Assembly: GCF_002210345.1 (NCBI RefSeq)
Contig: NZ_MWQI01000001.1
Coordinates: forward strand, 992,001 to 1,056,000
Direction: 5' to 3'
Source of the DNA: Fibrobacter sp. UWB4
GTDB lineage: Bacteria; Fibrobacterota; Fibrobacteria; Fibrobacterales; Fibrobacteraceae
DNA length: 64,000 nt
In this document: positions 22,661 to 36,283 of the stretch, in pieces
Position numbering within the stretch: the first letter of the stretch is position 1
Layout: each line of letters opens with the position of its first letter
Notes under the pieces: model-generated
What the model was told of the DNA's origin: nothing
Database searches by the model: none
What the model saw: only the letters and a program-made list of their open reading frames with translations
Position numbers and translations under genes: made by a program

Positions 22661-22732
22661 ACTTTTTTCAAAAATTGGTTGTCCGTTTTGGGTAATCTTA
22701 TTTAATTTTAAGCTTGGATTTTTGCCCTTCTT

Positions 22733-22747
22733 GCGTGTGCCACACGC
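22733..22747. promoter_or_regulatory. Perfect palindrome upstream of the PFOR gene
   Basis: GCGTGTG-C-CACACGC, 56 bases before the ATG of the oxidoreductase. The loop is too short for a 7-bp RNA hairpin, so an operator-type DNA site is possible. TATTTAA just upstream (about 22699) could be a -10 region. Confidence 0.35.
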
Positions 22748-22802
22748 CGAAGGTGTATATGATCAGATTTTTTTGAAAAAACCTAAAAAATGGAGATAGT
22801 CC

Positions 22803-25800
22803 ATGGCAAAAAAGATGATTGCGGTTGATGGTAACGAAGCAACCGCTAACGTCGCCCACAAGTTGAGCGAAGTTATTGCAATTTACCCCATTACCCCGTC
22901 CAGCCCGATGGCCGAACATTCCGACAACTGGAGTGCTAAGGGCCAGAAGAACATCTGGGGCCAGGTTCCTCGCGTATTTGAAATGCAGTCCGAAGGTGGT
23001 GCCGCTGGTACCGTCCACGGTGCTTTGCAGACTGGTGCCTTGACCACGACGTTCACGGCTTCCCAGGGTCTCCTCTTGATGATCCCGAACATGTACAAGA
23101 TTGCTGGCGAACTGACCCCCGCAGTCTTCCACGTTACTGCACGTGCTCTTGCCATGCAGGGCCTTTCCATTTTCGGTGACCACTCCGACGTTATGGCTTG
23201 CCGCCAGACCGGTTTTGCAATGCTCGCCTCCTCTTGCGTTCAGGAATGCCAGGACCTCGCTCTCGTGGCCCACGCTTCCACGCTCGAAAGCCGCGTTCCG
23301 TTTATGCACTTCTTTGACGGCTTCCGCACTTCTCACGAAGTCATGAAGATCGAAGCTCTCGAAGAAAACGTCATCCGTGACGTCATCGACGACAAGTACG
23401 TCAAGGCTTGCCGTGCACGCGCTATGACTCCGGACCGTCCGACCATGCGCGGTACTGCCCAGAACCCGGACGTTTACTTCCAGGGTCGTGAAACCGTGAA
23501 CCCGTTCTATGCAAAGGTTCCGGAAATTGTCCAGAAGTACATGGACAAGGTTGCAAGCTACACTGGCCGTCAGTACCACATTGTGGACTACGTCGGTGCT
23601 GCCGATGCAGAACGCGTCATCATTTCCATGGGTTCTTCTACTTGCACCATCGGTGATACCGTCAAGTACTTGAACGGGAAGGGCGAAAAGGTCGGTCTCG
23701 TCAACATCCGCCTCTACCGTCCGTTCCCGATGGAAGCTGTCGTTGCCGCTCTCCCGAAGACTGTCAAGAAGATTGCAGTCCTCGACCGCGTGAAGGAACC
23801 GGGTTCCGCAGGCGAACCGCTCTTCCAGGACGCCCTCACTGCTATTTCCGAAGCTGTGATGGCCGGCAAGATGGCTATGCCGAAGATGATCGGCGGCCGC
23901 TACGGTCTTTCTTCCAAGGAATTCACGCCGGCTATGGTCAAGGCCATCTTCGACGAACTTTCCAAGGCTGAACCGAAGTCCCGCTTCACCGTCGGTATCA
24001 ACGACGACGTTTGCAACACCTCCCTCACGATCGACCCGAACTTCAAGCTCGAAAGCGATTTCTTCCAGGCTATGTTCTTCGGTCTCGGCTCTGACGGTAC
24101 CGTCGGTGCAAACAAGAACTCCATCAAGATTATCGGTAACGAAACCGACAACTACGCTCAGGGTTACTTCGTCTACGACTCCAAGAAGTCCGGCTCCATG
24201 ACGACCTCTCACCTCCGCTTTGGTAAGAGCATCATTGACGCCCCGTACCTCATTGGCGAAAACGAAGCTGACTTTGTCGCTTGCCACCATACTCCGCACC
24301 TCGAATCTGTCGACATGCTCAAGTATGCCAAGGACGGCGCAACGTTCCTCGTGAACACTCCGCACTCCGCTGACACCGTTTGGGATACCTTCCCGCGTCC
24401 GGTTCAGGAAGCCATCATCAAGAAGCACCTCAAGGTGTTCGTCATCGACGCTTACGCCGTCGCTGCAAAGACCGGCATGGGCCGTCGCATCAACACTGTG
24501 ATGCAGACCTGCTTCTTCTCCAAGCTCGGTAACGTTCTCGATGCAGAAACCGCTATCAAGTACATCAAGAAGTACGCCGAAAAGACCTACGCCAAGAAGG
24601 GTATGGAAGTCGTCCAGAAGAACTGGGACGCTATCGATGCTTCTCTTGCCAACCTCTTCGAAGTCAAGGTTCCGTCTGCTGTCACCAGCACGAAGGAATT
24701 CCGCGCTCCGATCCACGGCGACGCTCCGAAGTTCGTGAACGAAGTCACTGCCGAAATCATCAAGGGCAACGGCGAACAGCTCCCAGTCTCCAAGATGCCT
24801 GTCGACGGTGTGTTCCCGACCGGTACCACCAAGTACGAAAAGCGCGACCTCGCCCTCAACATCCCGTCCTGGAATCCGGACGCTTGCGTACAGTGCGGCA
24901 AGTGCGCTATGGTCTGCCCGCACGCAGCTATCCGTATGAAGGTTGTCGACGAATCCGCTGTTGCTAACGCTCCGGCTGGCTTCAAGTTCACGGCAGCCAA
25001 GGGCTTCAAGCTCGAAGGTTCTGCAAAGCCGGTGTTCGCAATCTCTGTTTCCAGCTACGACTGTACGGGTTGCGGCGTTTGTACTCAGGCTTGCATTGGC
25101 AAGGACAAGACCGACGCTACCAAGAAGGCTATCAACATGGTTCCGCAGGAACCGATCAAGGAACAGGAAGGCAAGTGCTTCGACTTCTTCGTTGACCTCC
25201 CGGAATTTGACCGCACCAAGGTTAACAAGAACCTCGTCAAGCAGGCCATGCTCCTCGAACCGTTGTTCGAATTCTCCGGCTCTTGCGCAGGCTGCGGCGA
25301 AACGGCTTACGTACGTCTCGTTTCTCAACTCTTCGGTGACCGCATGGTCGTCGCAAACGCAACGGGTTGCTCTTCCATTTACGGTGGTAACCTCCCGACT
25401 ACACCGTGGGCCAAGAACAAAGAAGGCCGCGGTCCGGCTTGGGCAAACAGCTTGTTCGAAGACAACGCTGAATTCGGTCTCGGCATGCGCCTCGCTATCA
25501 CGAAGCATGCCAAGCAGGCTTTGAGCCTCCTCGACGAAGTTGCAGACAAGCTCCCGGCTGATCTCGTTGAAGCCCTCAAGACCCAGACGCAGAACGACGA
25601 AGCTGGCATTCAGGCCCAGCGCGCTAACGTCGCCAAGCTCAAGGAAGCTCTTAAGGATGCAAGCGACGACAAGGCTGTAAGCCTCCGCGATGAATTCGCT
25701 GACTACCTCGTCAAGAAGTCCGTGTGGATCATGGGCGGTGACGGTTGGGCATACGATATCGGTTACGGTGGTCTTGACCACGTGATGGCCACGGGTGAAA

Positions 25801-26366
25801 ACGTGAACATCCTCGTTCTCGATACCGAAGTGTACTCCAACACGGGTGGACAGGCTTCCAAGTCCACGAACCGTGGCGCCGTCGCCCTCTTCGCTGCCGC
25901 TGGTAAGCGCGCTGGCAAGAAGGACCTCGGCCTTATCGCCATGAGCTACAAGAACGTTTACGTCGGCCGTATCGCCATCGGCGCAAACGATGCTCAGGCC
26001 CTCAAGGTGCTCCAGGAAGCAGAAGCTCACAATGGTCCGTCCTTGATCATTGCTTACTGCCCGTGCATCAACCACGGTTTCGACCTCAACAACCAGCTTC
26101 AACACCAGAAGATGGCTGTCGATTCCGGTTACTGGACGCTCCTCCGCTACAACCCGGCCCTCGCTGCCGAAGGAAAGGCTCCGCTTATCCTCGACTCCAA
26201 GAAGCCGACTATTCCGGTTGCAGAATACATCTACACTGAAAACCGCTTCAAGGCCCTCACCCGCACCAATCCGGAAGTCGCTAAGGCACTCGCCGACGAC
26301 CTCCAGAAGGAAGTGGATGCACGCTTCGCTTACTACGAAGCCATGAGCCAGAACACGGCCGTGTAA
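22803..26366 (+). CDS. nifJ: Pyruvate:ferredoxin (flavodoxin) oxidoreductase
   Basis: A 1,187-residue single-chain enzyme that converts pyruvate and CoA to acetyl-CoA, CO2 and reduced ferredoxin, the main pyruvate route of an anaerobe. Domains in order: domain I (EVIAIYPITPSSPMAEHSDN), domain II with YRPFPMEAVV, domain III, the 4Fe-4S pair CVQCGKCAMVCPH (about 694) and CTGCGVCTQAC (about 753), then the TPP domain with GSCAGCGETAYVR, NATGCSSIYGGN, GGDGWAYDIGYGG and TEVYSNTGGQASKS. Length matches full NifJ/Por. Strong codon bias suggests high expression. GGAG precedes ATG. Two hairpins follow. Confidence 0.97.
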   Translation: MAKKMIAVDGNEATANVAHKLSEVIAIYPITPSSPMAEHSDNWSAKGQKNIWGQVPRVFEMQSEGGAAGTVHGALQTGALTTTFTASQGLLLMIPNMYKIAGELTPAVFHVTARALAMQGLSIFGDHSDVMACRQTGFAMLASSCVQECQDLALVAHASTLESRVPFMHFFDGFRTSHEVMKIEALEENVIRDVIDDKYVKACRARAMTPDRPTMRGTAQNPDVYFQGRETVNPFYAKVPEIVQKYMDKVASYTGRQYHIVDYVGAADAERVIISMGSSTCTIGDTVKYLNGKGEKVGLVNIRLYRPFPMEAVVAALPKTVKKIAVLDRVKEPGSAGEPLFQDALTAISEAVMAGKMAMPKMIGGRYGLSSKEFTPAMVKAIFDELSKAEPKSRFTVGINDDVCNTSLTIDPNFKLESDFFQAMFFGLGSDGTVGANKNSIKIIGNETDNYAQGYFVYDSKKSGSMTTSHLRFGKSIIDAPYLIGENEADFVACHHTPHLESVDMLKYAKDGATFLVNTPHSADTVWDTFPRPVQEAIIKKHLKVFVIDAYAVAAKTGMGRRINTVMQTCFFSKLGNVLDAETAIKYIKKYAEKTYAKKGMEVVQKNWDAIDASLANLFEVKVPSAVTSTKEFRAPIHGDAPKFVNEVTAEIIKGNGEQLPVSKMPVDGVFPTGTTKYEKRDLALNIPSWNPDACVQCGKCAMVCPHAAIRMKVVDESAVANAPAGFKFTAAKGFKLEGSAKPVFAISVSSYDCTGCGVCTQACIGKDKTDATKKAINMVPQEPIKEQEGKCFDFFVDLPEFDRTKVNKNLVKQAMLLEPLFEFSGSCAGCGETAYVRLVSQLFGDRMVVANATGCSSIYGGNLPTTPWAKNKEGRGPAWANSLFEDNAEFGLGMRLAITKHAKQALSLLDEVADKLPADLVEALKTQTQNDEAGIQAQRANVAKLKEALKDASDDKAVSLRDEFADYLVKKSVWIMGGDGWAYDIGYGGLDHVMATGENVNILVLDTEVYSNTGGQASKSTNRGAVALFAAAGKRAGKKDLGLIAMSYKNVYVGRIAIGANDAQALKVLQEAEAHNGPSLIIAYCPCINHGFDLNNQLQHQKMAVDSGYWTLLRYNPALAAEGKAPLILDSKKPTIPVAEYIYTENRFKALTRTNPEVAKALADDLQKEVDARFAYYEAMSQNTAV

Positions 26367-26384
26367 TTGTAGACAAGTAATGTC

Positions 26385-26453
26385 ATGCCCGACATGATCG
26401 GGCATCTCCCTTTACGAAAAGGCTCTCGTTCGAAAGAACGGGGCCTTTTTTTT
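26385..26453 (+). terminator. Two terminator hairpins after PFOR
   Basis: First ATGCCCGA-CATGA-TCGGGCAT (26385-26405) followed by CTCCCTTT. Second a stem closing on CGTTC-GAAA-GAACG with outer AAAGG/CCTTT and eight T at 26446-26453. The second is the stronger intrinsic terminator. Confidence 0.8.
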
Positions 26454-26559: not shown

Positions 26560-27636
26560 ATGACTTTCAAGAAAAAGAAACCTATGACTATAACCTTAGC
26601 GATTCTCTGCGTTTTAGGCATTATCGTCTTATTGTTCATCAATCAAGCTAGTTTTGGCAAGCTCCCGCAGGGCACTCGCCTAGAGCGAATCAAGCAGTCG
26701 CCGAATTACAATGGCAAGCAGTTCTTGAACGAGATCAAGACCACGATGATGACGAGCGAAAACGGTACGCTCTCCGTCTACAAAGAATACCTTTTTGGCG
26801 ACAAGTCCTTGACCACACCCGACACGGCAATCTCTGCAATTAAAACTGATTTGAAATCACTCCCCCGCGACAAAGACTGGATTGTATGGTTTGGGCACTC
26901 CTCGTACCTTTTGAATCTATCCGGAAAAACGATTCTAGTGGATCCCGTATTTCGTAAAGCCTCCCCCGTGAGTTTCGTGAACAAGATGTTCAAGGGCACG
27001 GACATTTACAAGCCAAATGATATGCCCGATATCGATTACCTTGTCATCAGCCACGATCACTGGGATCATCTAGATTACGAAACCGTCAAGGAACTGGAGC
27101 CACGTGTTAAAAAGGTTGTCATTGGACTTGGCGTTGGCGAGCATTTTGAATATTGGGGCTATCCTGTAGAGAAACTCGTGGAACTCGACTGGTGGGATGT
27201 ATCGGAACAAAGCAACGGATTTCGCATCACAGCAACTCCGGCAAGGCATTTCTCTGGACGTAGCCTGTTTATGAACAAGACATTGTGGGCGTCTTACATT
27301 TTTGAATCGCCAAAACGCACTATCTGGATTGGCGGAGACACAGGCTATGGACCGCATTTTGCAAAAATCGGGCAAAAATTTCCAGGCATCGATCTCGCGA
27401 TTCTCGAAAATGGACAGTACGACAAGAACTGGGCCGATATCCACACATTGCCGGAACAGTTGAGCAAGGAAATGGTAGAACTCGGAGCATCGCGCTACAT
27501 GACTGTCCATCATTCCAAGCTTTGCCTGAGCAATCATCCGTACTTTGAACCGCTCGAAAATGCAAAAAAGGCCGCCCAGGAATCAGGCAAGCCTGTACTG
27601 ATGCCGAAAATCGGCGAAGTCGTTTACCTAGATTAA
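26560..27636 (+). CDS. MBL-fold hydrolase, NAPE-PLD/RomA-like, membrane anchored
   Basis: A 358-residue protein. Basic N-terminus then one TM helix (MTITLAILCVLGIIVLLFI, from an alternative ATG at 26584). The metallo-beta-lactamase fold shows WFGHSSYLLNLSGKTILVDP, the metal site SHDHWDHLD (about residues 166-174), ATPARHFSGR, WIGGDTGYGPHF and a late His in MTVHHSKLC. The spacing and the GHSS motif match the UlaG/NAPE-PLD-like branch, which hydrolyses phosphodiesters or lactones. Substrate unknown. It ends convergent with the PrsW-like gene, sharing a hairpin. Confidence 0.85.
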   Translation: MTFKKKKPMTITLAILCVLGIIVLLFINQASFGKLPQGTRLERIKQSPNYNGKQFLNEIKTTMMTSENGTLSVYKEYLFGDKSLTTPDTAISAIKTDLKSLPRDKDWIVWFGHSSYLLNLSGKTILVDPVFRKASPVSFVNKMFKGTDIYKPNDMPDIDYLVISHDHWDHLDYETVKELEPRVKKVVIGLGVGEHFEYWGYPVEKLVELDWWDVSEQSNGFRITATPARHFSGRSLFMNKTLWASYIFESPKRTIWIGGDTGYGPHFAKIGQKFPGIDLAILENGQYDKNWADIHTLPEQLSKEMVELGASRYMTVHHSKLCLSNHPYFEPLENAKKAAQESGKPVLMPKIGEVVYLD

Positions 27637-27660
27637 AAGCTAAGAAGCCGCCTTTTAATC
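27631..27660. terminator. Shared hairpin containing two convergent stop codons
   Basis: GATTAAAAG (27631-27639) and CTTTTAATC (27652-27660) form a 9-bp stem around a 12-base loop. The TAA of the MBL gene is in one arm and that of the PrsW-like gene in the other. It may serve as a weak bidirectional terminator. Confidence 0.45.
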
Positions 27661-28284
27661 ATATCCTTCAGTCCTTCTATTTACCAGGTACAATAAAATT
27701 GCACATATCATCGGCATTGAAAAACCAATAAAGGATGATATCCCAGATTGAGAGACCAGTAAATTGTAAAGGCCGTGAACAGTCACGGACATTGACAGGA
27801 CGCCCGCAATTCCGGCTAAAGAACATACTTTGTACGTTTTCAGAAGCTGTATTCCCTTAGCGAGAGCCACCAATGTCACAATATGCATGACTCCAACCGC
27901 AAATCCGCGAATCAACACGAACGTAAGCTGCGGAGTGCCCGCCGAGATGATAAAGCAGCAGTTTTCAAAAGTCGCAAAGCCAGCACCGATACCAACAGCG
28001 AACAACTGTATTTCTTCATTCGACGCTTCAAACACATAAATACAGAACAGAATCGACAAAAGCTTCATGACTTCCTCCACAATTGGAGACAAGAAAATGG
28101 AAGTATCTTCGGAACTGAAGCCAGATGCAACTTCTAAAAAACCCGAGATATACGCCGAAAAAATGCAGACAATCATACCAGTAAGAATGCACACCAGCAA
28201 ACGCCGAGCGTTCCCCTTTGTGAATAGCAGGGAAATTGCTAACGGTACAGCAATGCATATCAATATGTTTTCAGCATATATCAT
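27655..28284 (-). CDS. PrsW-type intramembrane protease
   Basis: A 209-residue protein with about seven TM helices. The PrsW/CPBP-like glutamic protease marks are present: SPIVEEVMKLL (EExxK, about residues 67-77), GAGFATFENCCF (F-x-x-x-E-N, about 99-110), GVMHIVTLVALAKG and a last VHGLYNLL. PrsW in Bacillus cuts the anti-sigma factor RsiW to release an ECF sigma factor. Here it is the third gene of an operon led by an ECF-type sigma factor, and its ATG lies 14 bases inside the end of the preceding membrane-protein gene. Its substrate would be a membrane-bound regulator, most likely that neighbour. GGAG lies about 12 bases upstream. Confidence 0.8.
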   Translation of the reverse strand: MIYAENILICIAVPLAISLLFTKGNARRLLVCILTGMIVCIFSAYISGFLEVASGFSSEDTSIFLSPIVEEVMKLLSILFCIYVFEASNEEIQLFAVGIGAGFATFENCCFIISAGTPQLTFVLIRGFAVGVMHIVTLVALAKGIQLLKTYKVCSLAGIAGVLSMSVTVHGLYNLLVSQSGISSFIGFSMPMICAILLYLVNRRTEGYD

Positions 28285-29047
28285 CAGATAAAAGCTCCTT
28301 TTTCATCGATATATACATCATTGGCAAAGCAATCGTACTTGCAAAGAAGGCTATGTAATAGTAGAAACTTACGCTAGAGAACATTACCAAATTCGTCCAC
28401 AGGAAAAATGCCGATGACACAAAAAAATCCTTCAGCCGAACGCTCCTGACACCAAGCCACACAATCATTCCAAACATAAAGACATGACACAAAAAAACAA
28501 CGAGAGACTGTGAAAATCCGTCGATAAACCTTATGGCGACATGCATTATCAGAACAAAAACACTCATCATCATTGCAAGCCACATTTCTCTTTGAGATAA
28601 AGCTTGTCGAGTTTTGAGGCCTCGAATTATGAGCCAAAGAAAATAAATATACGGTATTCCAAAGAAAATATCCTGAAACCATTCCCCGGACCATACAATC
28701 CATAATGCAATATTTGCACCGATAAATAAAAAAGCAAACGCAATCTCCCCCGCATATTTTCTCTTGTCAGTCAAAATTGATTCCAGCGCAGCAGACAGAA
28801 GGAGAACCATGGCGCACTCGGCAATTTCATTCGACGCAATTGGCATGCGGATATCAGGCTTCAAAAAATCGTAAGCCAGCCAATACACATCGCTTAGAAA
28901 AAAACTGGACATTGACAAGATAAAGAAAAAGGGAAGAAAAAAATTCTTTTCCCTTTTTATCAATTTGTTTGTTTTTGCAATTACAACAACCAAGACAACA
29001 GCTTGAATTATGGTCGCTAAAATACCAAGCCTCGTCAATTCGCTCAT
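28271..29047 (-). CDS. Polytopic membrane protein, candidate sensor or anti-sigma partner
   Basis: A 258-residue, very hydrophobic protein with about eight or nine TM helices (LGILATIIQAVVLVVVIA, FFLPFFFILSMSSFFL, ECAMVLLLSAALESIL, AFAFLFIGANIALWIVW and others) and short loops. No catalytic motif, zinc-binding anti-sigma (ZAS) motif or soluble domain is seen. It overlaps the sigma-factor gene by 4 bases (ATGA) and the PrsW-like gene by 14 bases, so all three are translationally coupled; AAAGGA precedes the ATG. By position it is the natural membrane partner of the sigma factor. I do not recognise the family. The gene is AT-rich compared with neighbours, which suggests horizontal transfer. Confidence 0.7.
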   Translation of the reverse strand: MSELTRLGILATIIQAVVLVVVIAKTNKLIKREKNFFLPFFFILSMSSFFLSDVYWLAYDFLKPDIRMPIASNEIAECAMVLLLSAALESILTDKRKYAGEIAFAFLFIGANIALWIVWSGEWFQDIFFGIPYIYFLWLIIRGLKTRQALSQREMWLAMMMSVFVLIMHVAIRFIDGFSQSLVVFLCHVFMFGMIVWLGVRSVRLKDFFVSSAFFLWTNLVMFSSVSFYYYIAFFASTIALPMMYISMKKELLSDDIC

Positions 29048-29604
29048 TTTGCAGTCCTTTCGTATGCAATACGCAGAGATTCTTTACCTCTAGCCAAGAT
29101 ATTGTATGTTTGCTTTATATTCTTCTTAATTATCCTGCTAATTTGTTCAGGTTTCATATTTTCAAAAAACAGAAGAAATAAAGCCTGCCTATAGCAGGGA
29201 TCAATAGACTTCATTGCACGATAAAGATGCGTATTTCGCTCATTTTTCAACAGCTCCGCAACCGGCTGATGACATTCATCCGCTTCTAGATTGTTCAGGA
29301 ACTCTTTGTCTGGTGAAATGAATATAAATTTTCGCTTTCTTAAACAGAGCAAGGCCTGGTTTTTGGCAATCGTATAAAGCCAAGTTTTAAAAGAAGCATT
29401 AGCTTTTTCTTTGTAGCAAGCCGTTCCTGACACCAAGACAGCAAAAGTATCCATCATCAGCTCTTCAGCTTCGTCTATATTTTGAACAAATCCATAAATA
29501 AACAAGATTAGCCCGTCTCTATATTTATTAAAAAGAGCTTCAAGCGCCTTCGAATCATTATTCGTCAAAAAACTAGTGTACAGCAGTCCGTCAATATCGG
29601 GCAT
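29044..29604 (-). CDS. ECF-type RNA polymerase sigma factor
   Basis: A 186-residue protein. The start is set at ATG 29604 (MPDIDGLLYTSFL), preceded by GGGAGA at 8 bases; a TTG at 29622 and an ATG at 29619 in frame lie inside or before this site. Region 2 (about 15-85): ALEALFNKYRDGLILFIYGF, NIDEAEELMMDTF, FKTWLYTIAKNQAL. Region 4 (about 125-180): LYRAMKSIDPCYRQALFLLF, EQISRIIKKNIKQTYNILAR. These match sigma-70 family ECF proteins. It heads an operon with a polytopic membrane protein and a PrsW-like protease. No classical anti-sigma gene is present. Confidence 0.85.
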   Translation of the reverse strand: MPDIDGLLYTSFLTNNDSKALEALFNKYRDGLILFIYGFVQNIDEAEELMMDTFAVLVSGTACYKEKANASFKTWLYTIAKNQALLCLRKRKFIFISPDKEFLNNLEADECHQPVAELLKNERNTHLYRAMKSIDPCYRQALFLLFFENMKPEQISRIIKKNIKQTYNILARGKESLRIAYERTAK

Positions 29605-30058
29605 GAGCCCATCTCCCATCAAGATAACTCAACCACAATCTAATTAAACCAAATTTTTTCAGTTTATACAAAAGACGTCATTTCATTAGCTTATCCATGT
29701 TTGCTTAAAAACATACTATAAATTTAACACAAAGTCAAGAGTGGCAAGTCCTTTTTTCGAACAATTTGTCCTTTATTTCTTCTTTGCCCAAAACAAAGCA
29801 AACTAACTTTTACAATATTTTATAGAGTAAAAACACGCATACGAGCATTTAATAGAAGAAAAGATCAAAATGGCCCCAAAAAAGCCATGAAAGTCTTTTT
29901 TTTATTAATTACACCTCAAAATTAATCGCTCAGGAACTTTTTCCTGAGCGTCTTTTTTTGTACATATTTCAAAGCATATTTTTTACAAAAAAGCAATGAG
30001 TAAAAATCTACATTTAGGTAATTAATTATAAAAAGAGTGTAAAGGCAAGGAGGACAAA
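29605..30058. promoter_or_regulatory. AT-rich divergent intergenic region with a strong orphan terminator
   Basis: No gene is seen in these 450 bases between the sigma operon and the two-TM protein. It contains a strong plus-strand terminator at 29927-29959. A six-codon open frame starts at 29870 (ATG, encoding MAPKKP, TGA at 29888). Upstream of the sigma gene the minus strand reads GTATAAAC, a possible -10. The terminator implies a short transcript ending about 100 bases before the 30059 gene. Confidence 0.4.
29927..29959 (+). terminator. Strong intrinsic terminator without an upstream gene
   Basis: CGCTCAGGAA-CTTT-TTCCTGAGCG, a perfect 10-bp stem, followed by C and eight T. No CDS precedes it on the plus strand, so it marks either a small RNA or a leader/attenuator for the gene at 30059. 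Confidence 0.8.
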
Positions 30059-30385
30059 ATGAAATATACAAGAGACGAGGCCCTGAAAGAAATCAGACGA
30101 CGAGCAAAGGTCATTAGGCAAAAACGCGATAGAAAAATGGCGAGCCTCTTTGCAACGACAGCCTGCATTTCCCTTATAGCCCTTTTGGCGGTAATTGGGA
30201 AATTTGCCGGTTCAGAAGTTTCGGGCATCCCAGGCGCTTATGGATCATTCATCCTCTCGGCCAGTACAGGCGGGTATGTGCTGGCGGGCATTTTAGGATT
30301 CGTTCTTGGCGTTTCTGTAACTCTTTTTATCAAATACCTGAAGAAAAAAAACAAAGACAACCTAGAACAACGTTCCGGAAACTAG
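30059..30385 (+). CDS. Small two-TM membrane protein
   Basis: A 108-residue protein. Basic helical N-terminus (RDEALKEIRRRAKVIRQKRD), first TM helix (ATTACISLIALLAVIGKFA, about 31-50), a Gly/Ser-rich external loop (SGIPGAYGSFILSASTGG) and second TM helix (YVLAGILGFVLGVSVTLFIK), ending in a Lys-rich tail. AAGGAGG precedes the ATG. It is divergent from the sigma/membrane protein/PrsW operon and may belong to the same module, but this is only by position. Function unknown. Confidence 0.7.
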   Translation: MKYTRDEALKEIRRRAKVIRQKRDRKMASLFATTACISLIALLAVIGKFAGSEVSGIPGAYGSFILSASTGGYVLAGILGFVLGVSVTLFIKYLKKKNKDNLEQRSGN

Positions 30386-32280: not shown

Positions 32281-33870
32281 TCAATCTTTCACACAGCGAA
32301 CATAGAAGAATGAAGAGAGTGCCCAACCTGTATCCCAGGCAGAAGCGTTTTGAGAATTAAGTCCCAATATTGACGGGATATTTCTACTTGAAGAAGTCCA
32401 ATACTTATCACAGCCTTCACCCGAAAAACCACCCGTAAGATAATAACATCCTCCACTATGATTGTTAAATCCAGAATCATCTATATTGAAACCGCTCGCT
32501 TTTACGGGGTATACCTCATCAGTTTCCGACTCTTCAACAACTCCGCCTAAAGAGACAAGCAGTTGCATCCATTCGCTTTCCGACGGCAAATGCCACCCTT
32601 CAGGGCAAACACCACGCAATGATTCTCGAACTTTGCACGCCTCAGCATTTCCCCTACCGCAACCAATTCCGCCATCGCCAAAAAGGCCCGCAGAATCCAC
32701 CGCAGCAGCTAGGGAATACAACCGTCCATATTCATCGCATTTTTGAGGATCTTTGTTATAGCACATGGAGAAAGTCTGGAGTGTATGGTAATCGTAATTC
32801 AGATTTTCAGCCATCCAGACTTGATCGCCAATTTGAACAGTCTTATATGTTTGACCATCCCTTGCATCAGTCATGGTTCCAAAAATGCCTTTATAATTGC
32901 CGGAGTTTTTTTCTATAGATTCCCAATGTCCATTTTCACAAACAAACTTTTCACCGTTTCTGATACTCAGCGGGTTCACATTTGCAGTTGTATCGCCATC
33001 ATTTGTAGCAGAGCATGTTCCAAGGCCATAATTATCCGTCCAGAAATAGTCCACAAACTTTTCGAAGTCTGGTAAAGAATCAGAAATTTTCCATGAAAGG
33101 ATATTGGCCCTGATATCGTCAAACAATCTGCGTTGAGAAACTTCGCAAGCCCAGTCCGCAATAACGGTTCTTGTCGCCGAATCATTCCAGGAACCACCTT
33201 CGGCAAGCTCCATACTGAACTTGCCAACGCGTTCCGTGAGGCCAGCAACATCGACATCGCCTTGCATTAGGGCGCTTATCGCAAGGAGCTTCGCATTTTC
33301 ATCTCCCGACTTGAAAATATCCAGGTCTTCAAATGATTTGCTGGCATCATTCATGGCCATAGCCGCAAGGACTTCATTCGCGGCCTGGGTTTTAGCTTCT
33401 TTAAAAGATTTTCCTTGGGAGACAAGCAACTTGACCCTTTCAAACTCAAGGTGTGTCAACAAATTAACATTGACTTTTTCACGATGGCTCAAATCCGTAA
33501 AAGCGTTCAAGGTCAAAGGCCCGGAAGATCTTTTTCCTGTAATTTCGTTACGGTAGTAGCCTTTAACCTGAATCATCGCATATGGAGATGAAAAGCCTTG
33601 ACCCGAGATGATAAAATCGCCTTCATCGCTTCGAATTGTCGACTTGAATATTTTACCAGTTTGCTCCAAGGTCAGGCTGTCCAGTTCCATAATATTCACT
33701 GTAGAACCTGTTACAAAAGGCCCCTTTTGAGACACCCCGGAAATATTCCAACTTCCGGCTGGTGTTTTTTCATGAGATGTAGAACCTTTTTCACCAGAAG
33801 CGCCTGTAATGTCATCTGAACAAGCAGCCAACAGCAAAAATGGTAAAAGCATAAGGGATTTCATATTCAT
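32281..33870 (-). CDS. FISUMP lipoprotein (paralogue 1)
   Basis: A 529-residue protein with lipoprotein signal MKSLMLLPFLLLAAC. Residues about 45-310 form an N-terminal module (VSQKGPFVTGSTVNIMELD, GYYRNEITGK, NVNLLTHLEFERVKLLVSQG) shared with the next gene. The C-terminal FISUMP domain (about 330-529) has YKTVQIGDQVWMAENLNYDY, YGRLYSLAAAVDSAG, GVCPEGWHLPSESEWMQL and a closing FYVRCVKD. Such proteins are abundant in Fibrobacter and probably lie on the cell surface; role unknown. GGAGAG precedes the ATG. Third gene of the operon with a TIGR02147-like regulator. Confidence 0.88.
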   Translation of the reverse strand: MNMKSLMLLPFLLLAACSDDITGASGEKGSTSHEKTPAGSWNISGVSQKGPFVTGSTVNIMELDSLTLEQTGKIFKSTIRSDEGDFIISGQGFSSPYAMIQVKGYYRNEITGKRSSGPLTLNAFTDLSHREKVNVNLLTHLEFERVKLLVSQGKSFKEAKTQAANEVLAAMAMNDASKSFEDLDIFKSGDENAKLLAISALMQGDVDVAGLTERVGKFSMELAEGGSWNDSATRTVIADWACEVSQRRLFDDIRANILSWKISDSLPDFEKFVDYFWTDNYGLGTCSATNDGDTTANVNPLSIRNGEKFVCENGHWESIEKNSGNYKGIFGTMTDARDGQTYKTVQIGDQVWMAENLNYDYHTLQTFSMCYNKDPQKCDEYGRLYSLAAAVDSAGLFGDGGIGCGRGNAEACKVRESLRGVCPEGWHLPSESEWMQLLVSLGGVVEESETDEVYPVKASGFNIDDSGFNNHSGGCYYLTGGFSGEGCDKYWTSSSRNIPSILGLNSQNASAWDTGWALSSFFYVRCVKD

Positions 33871-33891
33871 TTAAAAACTCTCCACTTTTTA

Positions 33892-35454
33892 TCAATTCGA
33901 TTTCTGGTCTTTTATACAACGAACATTTCTGCCAATAAACCAAGCATTTGACTCACCAGGCCAAAAAGAAAGAACTTGTTCATTGTTCACATCCAAATAA
34001 ACTACGTGATCAAACTGTGATCCTGCATATTTCCTTTTAGACGATGTCCAAAAACCAACAGATTGACTTGTCATATTGAACCCATAGTCATCGGTACCCA
34101 AATCATTAGCCGATCTTAATGTTCTTGAGGCTGTAACATTTCCACCCGCAGTCGCTATCAGAATCGTCCATTCATCTTCCGACGGCAAATGCCACCCTTC
34201 AGGGCAAACCCCTCGAGAAGATTCTTTTAAATCACAGAGCGAACTCGAGAGACCACAACCAATACCGCCATCACCAAACAACCCAGCGGAATCCATAGCC
34301 GCCGCAAAAGAATAAATGCGCCCATAATTTTCGCAATATTGCGGCAGATCGCCAAGGCAAGCCGTCAAGGGTTCATTTGTCGGATAACTGTATTTCAGAT
34401 TCTCGGCCATCCAGACCTGATCGCCAATTTGAACCGTTTTATAGATTCGACCATCTCTTGCGTCAACCAGAGTTCCAAAATCGCCTTTATAAAGGCTCTT
34501 CTTTCTATGGGAATATTCCCAGCGTTCATTGTTACAGATAAAGATATCACCAAACCGAGAACTCTTATCATTCATATTAACAGCGGTATCGCCGGCGTTT
34601 GAATTCGTGCATTCTCCCAAGCCATAGTTATCATACCAGAACATGTCAACGTACTTTTCAAAATTCGGCAATGTATCAGAAATGCCCCACGCAAGAACAT
34701 TCTTCCTAATATTCTTGAAAGTACTATCCTCGGATGCTCTTGAGGCCCAGTCCGCAATAGCGGTCCTCGTTATAGAATCATTCCATGAGCCATTTGTTTC
34801 CAAATCTAAGCTAAACTTGCCCATGCGTTCCGTAAGGCCAGCGACATCGACATCGCTTTGCATCAAGACGCTTACGGCTAGAAGCATTCCATTTTCATCG
34901 CCCAATTCAAAGATGTTCATGTCTTCGAATTTTTTGCTAGACTCGTTCATCGCCATCGTGACAATGATTTCTCGTTCTGCCTGGTCCTTTGCCTTTTTCA
35001 CAGAGTACCCTTGCGAAACAAGATTCTTTACGCGATCAAATTCCAGATGCGTCAACAAGTTGACATTGACATTTTCCCGATGACTAAGATCCGTAATGGC
35101 ATTCAAGACCAGGGAACCTGAGGACACCTGACCGGTAATTTCATTGCGGTAGTAGCCATCCACCTCAAGCATGGCATACTGCGAAACAAGTCCTGATCCC
35201 GAAATAGCGAAATCACCCTTATCGCTTCGGATACTGGACTTGAAGATTTTTCCAGTCTGAGTCAATGTCGAGCCATCCAGCTCCAGCACATTCACTGTAG
35301 AACCTGTTACAAAAGGTCCCTTCTGGGAGACGCCCGCAACTTGCCATCTTTCAAGAGGCGTGATTCCGACATCTTCACTCGCACCGCTTGCAACCTTGTC
35401 CGAACATGCGGCAAGGCACAAAGCGGCAAATACAACAATAGGTTTCAAACTCAT
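33892..35454 (-). CDS. FISUMP lipoprotein (paralogue 2)
   Basis: The start is set at ATG 35454 (MSLKPIVVFAALCLAAC), 9 bases after GAGGAG and one base after the stop of the regulator gene; the frame upstream belongs to that gene's end. 520 residues. Layout is the same as paralogue 1: lipobox LAAC, shared module (VSQKGPFVTGSTVNVLELDG), then FISUMP with IYKTVQIGDQVWMAENLKYS, GVCPEGWHLPSEDEW, FWTSSKRKY and NVRCIKD. The two proteins look like products of a tandem duplication with differing C-terminal surfaces. Probably exposed on the cell surface; ligand unknown. Confidence 0.88.
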   Translation of the reverse strand: MSLKPIVVFAALCLAACSDKVASGASEDVGITPLERWQVAGVSQKGPFVTGSTVNVLELDGSTLTQTGKIFKSSIRSDKGDFAISGSGLVSQYAMLEVDGYYRNEITGQVSSGSLVLNAITDLSHRENVNVNLLTHLEFDRVKNLVSQGYSVKKAKDQAEREIIVTMAMNESSKKFEDMNIFELGDENGMLLAVSVLMQSDVDVAGLTERMGKFSLDLETNGSWNDSITRTAIADWASRASEDSTFKNIRKNVLAWGISDTLPNFEKYVDMFWYDNYGLGECTNSNAGDTAVNMNDKSSRFGDIFICNNERWEYSHRKKSLYKGDFGTLVDARDGRIYKTVQIGDQVWMAENLKYSYPTNEPLTACLGDLPQYCENYGRIYSFAAAMDSAGLFGDGGIGCGLSSSLCDLKESSRGVCPEGWHLPSEDEWTILIATAGGNVTASRTLRSANDLGTDDYGFNMTSQSVGFWTSSKRKYAGSQFDHVVYLDVNNEQVLSFWPGESNAWFIGRNVRCIKDQKSN

Positions 35455-35455
35455 T

Positions 35456-36283
35456 TTAGCGTTCTCCTCGAACATTCTCAGTGAGAGGGAAAAATTGAAG
35501 ATTTAAACGGTAAACTTGTTCTGTATCGCCATCTTCAGATACGATATTCAAAATCTGCTTTCTAAATTCAGCCAGAGCTTTCACAATCCGTTCATAACCA
35601 TTGCGGGTTATGCCCATTGTAATCCCTGACATGCTTCTTTCCGAAGGCGACAAGCTAACCGCATCCAGCGCAAGCTCGCCCATTTGCCGCTGTAAATTCC
35701 TTGCAGCAACAGGAATCACGTCAACACAGCCAATGGAAATCGTCTTGTCCGTTTGATGGTAGACGTCTTTATCGTCTTTCTTTAGAAAGCCTTCATTTTC
35801 CAAAAAAGCAAGCGTATCCCCAACGTCATTAGCTGAGATCAAAGGCTTACAGACTTTGGCCATTTCAAAAGGCTTTGCTCCAGGCATGGCCGGAGCCAAT
35901 TCACGGATCAGCGAATTTTTCCAAGATTTAAAAAAGACATATTCATTGGCGCCAAGTGTCCTGACTCTTCGTTTTTTAGCCAATGCACACATTTCTTCAT
36001 AAGCTTTCATCTTGTCGTCATCCGTTTTTGCTGACGCATAGACAACCATGGCGTTAAAATATGCCGCATCAAAACCAGCCAAGCTCATCGCAGAAGCAAC
36101 TGACGCTGCAGCCGAAACGCTGAGATTCTTTTTCCCTTCACAAACGTACTTGAGAAAAATCGCAGAGGAAAACCCAGAAGATTTCGCGAATTCACGCCAC
36201 GAAAAAACAGACGCCTGCTTTTTTTCATTGTAAAAATCTAAAATGACTTTGCGATAATCAACGTATTCTGTTATTGGCTTCAT
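35456..36283 (-). CDS. TIGR02147-family regulator of Fibrobacter type
   Basis: A 275-residue protein with the family opening YVDYRKVILDFYNEKKQ, then FSWREFAKSSGFSSAIFLKY (HTH-like, about 22-50) and GKKNLSVSAAASVASAM. The middle (about 115-205) holds SWKNSLIREL and a winged-helix-like FLENEGFLKKDDKDVYHQTD. The C-terminal part ends in QVYRLNLQFFPLT. TIGR02147 proteins (Fibrobacter expanded family, DUF4423-related) are thought to be DNA-binding regulators. It heads a three-gene operon with two FISUMP lipoproteins; only one base separates its TAA from the next ATG. Confidence 0.85.
   Translation of the reverse strand: MKPITEYVDYRKVILDFYNEKKQASVFSWREFAKSSGFSSAIFLKYVCEGKKNLSVSAAASVASAMSLAGFDAAYFNAMVVYASAKTDDDKMKAYEEMCALAKKRRVRTLGANEYVFFKSWKNSLIRELAPAMPGAKPFEMAKVCKPLISANDVGDTLAFLENEGFLKKDDKDVYHQTDKTISIGCVDVIPVAARNLQRQMGELALDAVSLSPSERSMSGITMGITRNGYERIVKALAEFRKQILNIVSEDGDTEQVYRLNLQFFPLTENVRGER

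Follow-up and report, generated by a model that had tools for sequence, protein, structure and literature searches.

An ECF sigma factor cassette with a PrsW-type protease, a polytopic membrane protein and a small candidate anti-sigma protein in Fibrobacter and Clostridia

In the SigW–RsiW–PrsW–RasP system of Bacillus subtilis, an ECF sigma factor is combined with an intramembrane protease of the PrsW family, and PrsW is responsible for cutting RsiW at site 1 (PMC3498285). A different arrangement is represented by CarQ–CarR and SigF–NrsF (DUF1109), in which, according to the portions of the reports consulted, an ECF sigma factor is accompanied by an adjacent and coupled polytopic membrane protein. 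The same portions describe CarR as a six-helix anti-sigma factor (PMC8156234) and NrsF as another with six helices, the exposed parts of which amount to no more than an N-terminus of 25 residues and short linkers (PMC3511200). The locus described here comes from Fibrobacter sp. UWB4 (assembly of 3.58 Mb in 18 contigs) and has elements of both arrangements. Its features are listed below in the coordinates of the window, which is the whole stretch of 64,000 nucleotides that was analysed.

29044-29604, minus strand: SIG, an ECF-type sigma-70 factor of 186 aa (Pfam and NCBIfam matches; start taken from relatives; kept in 23 loci)
28271-29047, minus strand: MEM, 258 aa, nine predicted TM helices, no known family (ORF, alignment and helix prediction)
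27655-28284, minus strand: PrsW-type glutamic intramembrane protease, 209 aa (PF13367; alignment of 22 homologues)
30059-30385, plus strand: F3, a two-TM protein of 108 aa with a basic cytoplasmic N-terminal helix (conserved neighbour, co-occurrence and alignments)
29997-30025, plus strand: P2, promoter element of sigma type, TGAGTAAAAATCTACATTTAGGTAATTAA, 33 bases upstream of F3 (pattern and matrix searches)
29825-29852, plus strand: P1, a second copy of the promoter element, GAGTAAAAACACGCATACGAGCATTTAA, followed by the terminator without an intervening gene (pattern search)
29927-29960, plus strand: terminator-like hairpin with a T run, 3' of P1

The three minus-strand genes overlap as the initial annotation had described, by 4 nt between SIG and MEM and by 14 nt between MEM and PrsW in the checked ORF list, and the cassette is indeed AT-rich, with a GC content of 35–39% compared with about 47%. 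The assignment of the first gene to the ECF sigma factors was also confirmed. SIG matches Pfam Sigma70_r2 above the cut-off (E 1.6e-9) and the NCBIfam sigma70-ECF superfamily model with 64.9 bits (cut-off 42.9), while the region 4 match is below its cut-off (17.4 versus 25.7 bits). The start was taken as ATG, as an upstream TTG at 29622 has no backing from relatives.

The third protein belongs to the PrsW protease family, matching PF13367 with 51.4 bits (cut-off 23.5), and the EExxK and FxxxEN motifs on which the original assignment was based are intact and are kept, together with the TM5 histidine and HGLYN (HxxxN), across the 22 aligned homologues. It is not an equivalog of the Bacillus enzyme, since it reaches only 32.9 of the 225 bits required by NF033739, and in contrast to that enzyme it is encoded within the sigma operon. 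The PrsW motif has been given as HxxxD (PMC4602095), whereas the protein here has HxxxN. The module differs further from SigW–RsiW in lacking a zinc anti-sigma factor of the RsiW type, none of MEM, PrsW and F3 matching such a domain, and in having the additional MEM and the two-helix F3.

SIG and PrsW genes adjoin MEM in all 23 MEM loci found, 11 of them in Fibrobacter and 12 in Clostridia, mainly Lachnospiraceae. SIG–MEM–PrsW is a conserved unit. The proposal of a coupled cassette is borne out by this neighbourhood search, in which MEM was not seen to occur mostly apart from sigma or PrsW genes. MEM relatives are present in ten further genomes of the same genus, in two Clostridia contigs and in nine further genomes of the family Lachnospiraceae (397 sampled). 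The search that gave the ten genomes also gave three weak matches in other genera, which have the appearance of chance. When 391 genomes were sampled across the class Clostridia as a whole, the centre genome was the single match, and searches of viral contigs with MEM and PrsW returned none. A farther Lachnospiraceae clade (L119–L137) has an identical gene order with a shorter MEM of about 205–230 aa, which profile comparison indicates to be homologous (hhalign probability 98.5%, E 1.6e-15). Bacteria of the gut and the rumen from two different phyla share the module. No description of a SIG–MEM–PrsW–F3 module was found in the literature searched; the main ECF reclassification lay outside that search, and an existing ECF group number is possible.

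In midpoint-rooted trees of both SIG and PrsW, the Fibrobacter sequences form one clade (support 100) within mostly Lachnospiraceae sequences, beside L066 in the PrsW tree and beside L066 and L067 in the SIG tree, and the main splits agree between the two. The earlier suggestion that the cassette may have been acquired is therefore likely to be correct. The trees would fit a single transfer, for which we infer the direction from Clostridia into the genus. We note that one Lachnospiraceae genome (L064:5634-11859) carries two adjacent cassettes, of which one is split by an inversion, and that at L123:8800-11353 the sigma gene is preceded by four tandem ORFs of about 100–180 aa. Three of these ORFs are clear paralogues (MLITKDVLKNLKLKxGKISEKRCQEINAMKIENP).

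The initial annotation held that no anti-sigma gene of the single-pass kind is present. This is not supported, because the small protein F3 tracks the cassette perfectly. Divergent to the cassette in all 11 loci of the genus, F3 occurs in 11 of 101 relatives, a set identical to that of MEM, and in none without the cassette, and it is present in 22 of the 22 MEM loci with sequenced flanks. An apparent absence beside one cassette (G005) was a gene-calling artefact. The protein has a basic N-terminus of 27 residues followed by two helices, and the short loop that joins the helices contains the conserved stretch YGxxxLxxxxGGY; its structure model shows two long helices but is poor (pLDDT 66, pTM 0.33). 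In the Clostridia F3 comes after PrsW. Often there is a second copy, which overlaps the stop of SIG and precedes MEM. This second copy sits where an anti-sigma gene would, and the overlap is a coupling typical of sigma/anti-sigma pairs. In L021, L026 and L066 it consists of a peptide of 35–38 residues made of the second helix, and one of the L064 sigma copies carries a similar F3 remnant. The sigma-coupled copy is thus cut to about the second helix in four loci, which means that this copy can sometimes do without the N-terminus.

Three broken arrangements part the same two halves of the module. In G457, SIG, two F3 genes and a surface protein gene are on one contig and MEM–PrsW is on another; in L064 one SIG with its F3 remnant lies opposite to its MEM–PrsW–F3; and in L075 SIG and a truncated F3 occur without MEM or PrsW. 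These arrangements may indicate SIG–F3 and MEM–PrsW as the working pairs, which is suggestive only, as the examples are few and come from draft genomes. Because it is small, membrane-anchored, always present and often coupled to SIG, F3 appears to be a better candidate than MEM for the anti-sigma factor and PrsW substrate. By analogy with SigW–RsiW–PrsW, the protease would be expected to cut a membrane-anchored sigma inhibitor.

In our view the chances are about even that the module is a membrane signalling system built around the ECF sigma factor. F3 would use its short cytoplasmic N-terminus to hold SIG inactive at the membrane, and PrsW would perform the site-1 step by cutting F3 in or near the first helix or in the loop. 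MEM, almost all of which lies in the membrane, would sense a membrane or envelope signal and gate PrsW, and the freed SIG would transcribe F3, as negative feedback, and the surface protein genes where these are present. Counting against this role of F3 are the shortness of its cytoplasmic N-terminus (about 27 residues), its basic character and the lack of a match to any anti-sigma family; in a comparison with known families including anti-sigma domains, F3 gave no match above cut-off. The truncated sigma-coupled copies in four loci also weigh against the model, as does the failure to recover the promoter element described below in the farther Lachnospiraceae clade.

MEM had been put forward as the anchor, the sensor or the anti-sigma factor itself. 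It may be a sensor or anchor, but the anti-sigma role is less favoured and stands as a rival. According to that rival, MEM would bind the sigma factor through its cytoplasmic loops, PrsW would inactivate MEM, and F3 would be a sigma-controlled target instead of an inhibitor. The position of MEM directly 3' of SIG and overlapping it in the window is consistent with this, as is the existence of six-helix anti-sigma factors in the accounts of NrsF and CarR cited above. However, the predicted cytoplasmic loops of MEM are short (7–12 residues), it matches no anti-sigma family and the broken loci keep it with PrsW and not with SIG. It is also the fastest diverging of the three cassette proteins, with a mean column identity of 46% across the alignment compared with 51% for SIG and 61% for PrsW. 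We consider this explanation doubtful. MEM also differs from CarR and NrsF, as far as these are described in the portions consulted, in having nine predicted helices where they have six and in lacking a DUF1109 match, and those portions mention no PrsW or F3 alongside either protein.

That MEM is a polytopic protein of no recognised family, as had been claimed, was upheld by searches against Pfam, NCBIfam, PHROGs and the PDB sequences, none of which gave a significant match; none of 13 MEM relatives matched Pfam, DUF1109 included. The structure model (pLDDT 76) was built from three sequences. A GPCR- or rhodopsin-like fold was considered and rejected, the PDB fold matches being insignificant (E 0.25 or worse, TM 0.18–0.41).

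Loci of the genus share the element (T)GAGTAA-N13/14-GNNNTTAA upstream of F3, in 10 of 11 cases at the expected place and in L026 farther upstream. The window contains two copies where 0.04 would be expected. A stricter pattern, TGAGTAAN{13,14}GYNATTAA, was found in 10 of 10 other cassette-bearing members of the genus and in none of five cassette-free members, compared with two matches in 17 genomes for the reversed-pattern control. Of the 21 sites of the stricter pattern, 19 are on contigs that carry the cassette, where they precede F3, a secreted-protein gene (F4/F5) or SIG. With the Clostridia held out, a matrix built from the genus loci alone finds the element at equal spacing before F3 in eight of 11 loci of the nearer Clostridia clade (p ≤ 0.015) and in two more at p 0.07–0.075; the element of L059 is just outside the scanned stretch, yet visible there. 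The matrix did not recover the element in the farther Lachnospiraceae clade, as would be expected if the sigma factor of that clade differs in specificity. Nor was the element found before the sigma-coupled F3 copies, only one of 20 of which reaches p = 0.05.

Genome-wide, the loose pattern gave seven matches in the source genome and eight in the control, which is background outside the locus, so that in this genome SIG may have no targets other than F3 and a short RNA. An RNA of about 100 nt could be made from P1, ending at the hairpin (29927-29960). The segment 29825-29960 may encode a small RNA under sigma control, or it may be what is left of a gene that was lost. Rfam matches around P1 were all far below gathering scores, and in L026 the equivalent place holds two small ORFs.

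The promoter before F3 and the conserved loop between its helices invite a further comparison. Signalling of the agr type involves a small membrane protein, a membrane protease and a polytopic protein in one locus, together with a histidine kinase pair. The present module has the first three components, with the sigma factor replacing the histidine kinase pair, and shows no evidence of an exported peptide. F3 could accordingly be a signal precursor, a PrsW-cut fragment of which would be sensed by MEM while SIG amplified F3 in an autoinducing circuit; the short loop YGxxxLxxxxGGY, the sigma-type promoter driving F3 and the receptor-like nature of MEM, which has no soluble domain, would all suit such a circuit. 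We regard it as quite improbable, because the conserved cytoplasmic N-terminus of F3 would be superfluous in a pure signal, a link from MEM to SIG is not known and F3 also occurs within the sigma operon.

In the preferred model, in which F3 is the inhibitor, further putative targets of SIG are genes behind F3. In the Clostridia these encode mostly large secreted proteins of about 500–2500 aa and of unrelated make-up, with LysM/DUF6273, VWA/FctA pilin-like or FG-GAP domains, Listeria–Bacteroides repeats with MBG and Big_2, or no recognised domain. Several members of the genus have secreted proteins of 140 aa and 1050 aa after F3, the latter of which is missing from the source genome, and in G101 a distant promoter site precedes a surface protein of 1823 aa. 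It is tempting, from the frequent position of surface protein genes directly after F3, to see a module for the export or anchoring of large surface proteins, in which PrsW would act in a sortase-like manner with F3 and MEM as partners and SIG would only set expression. The surface proteins have no common C-terminal sorting signal, however, and in the window no surface protein gene follows F3, and we find this explanation very improbable. As a tentative proposal, to which we give somewhat less than even weight, the locus would be a new kind of sigma switch, used by gut and rumen bacteria to control large surface proteins and made of two separable pairs, MEM–PrsW and SIG with the minimal two-helix anti-sigma factor F3. 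A constant PrsW with one polytopic partner, a defined promoter and a minimal candidate anti-sigma factor make the module testable in a small reconstituted system, and it provides a handle on the control of large uncharacterised surface proteins in Lachnospiraceae and Fibrobacter-like rumen bacteria.

Some further observations concern the surroundings of these loci. Small proteins near a promoter element at L026:11680-12027 and L075:2744-3298 both begin with GGW and contain the motif QVVAG/QVVNG; a cystatin-like identity based on this motif was rejected for want of Pfam support. A metallo-beta-lactamase-fold protein adjoins the cassette in the window (26560-27636, plus strand), and a similar one lies beside the partial second cassette of a member of the same genus (L075:3374-4465). 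An ORF of 1235 aa at 22698-26405 (minus strand) is antisense to a pyruvate:ferredoxin oxidoreductase-like gene at 22803-26366 and is most likely a shadow ORF. Finally, 32281-35475 (minus strand) encodes two neighbouring paralogous lipoproteins of about 527 aa each with identical domain order, which we take to be of the Fibrobacter 'FISUMP' kind.
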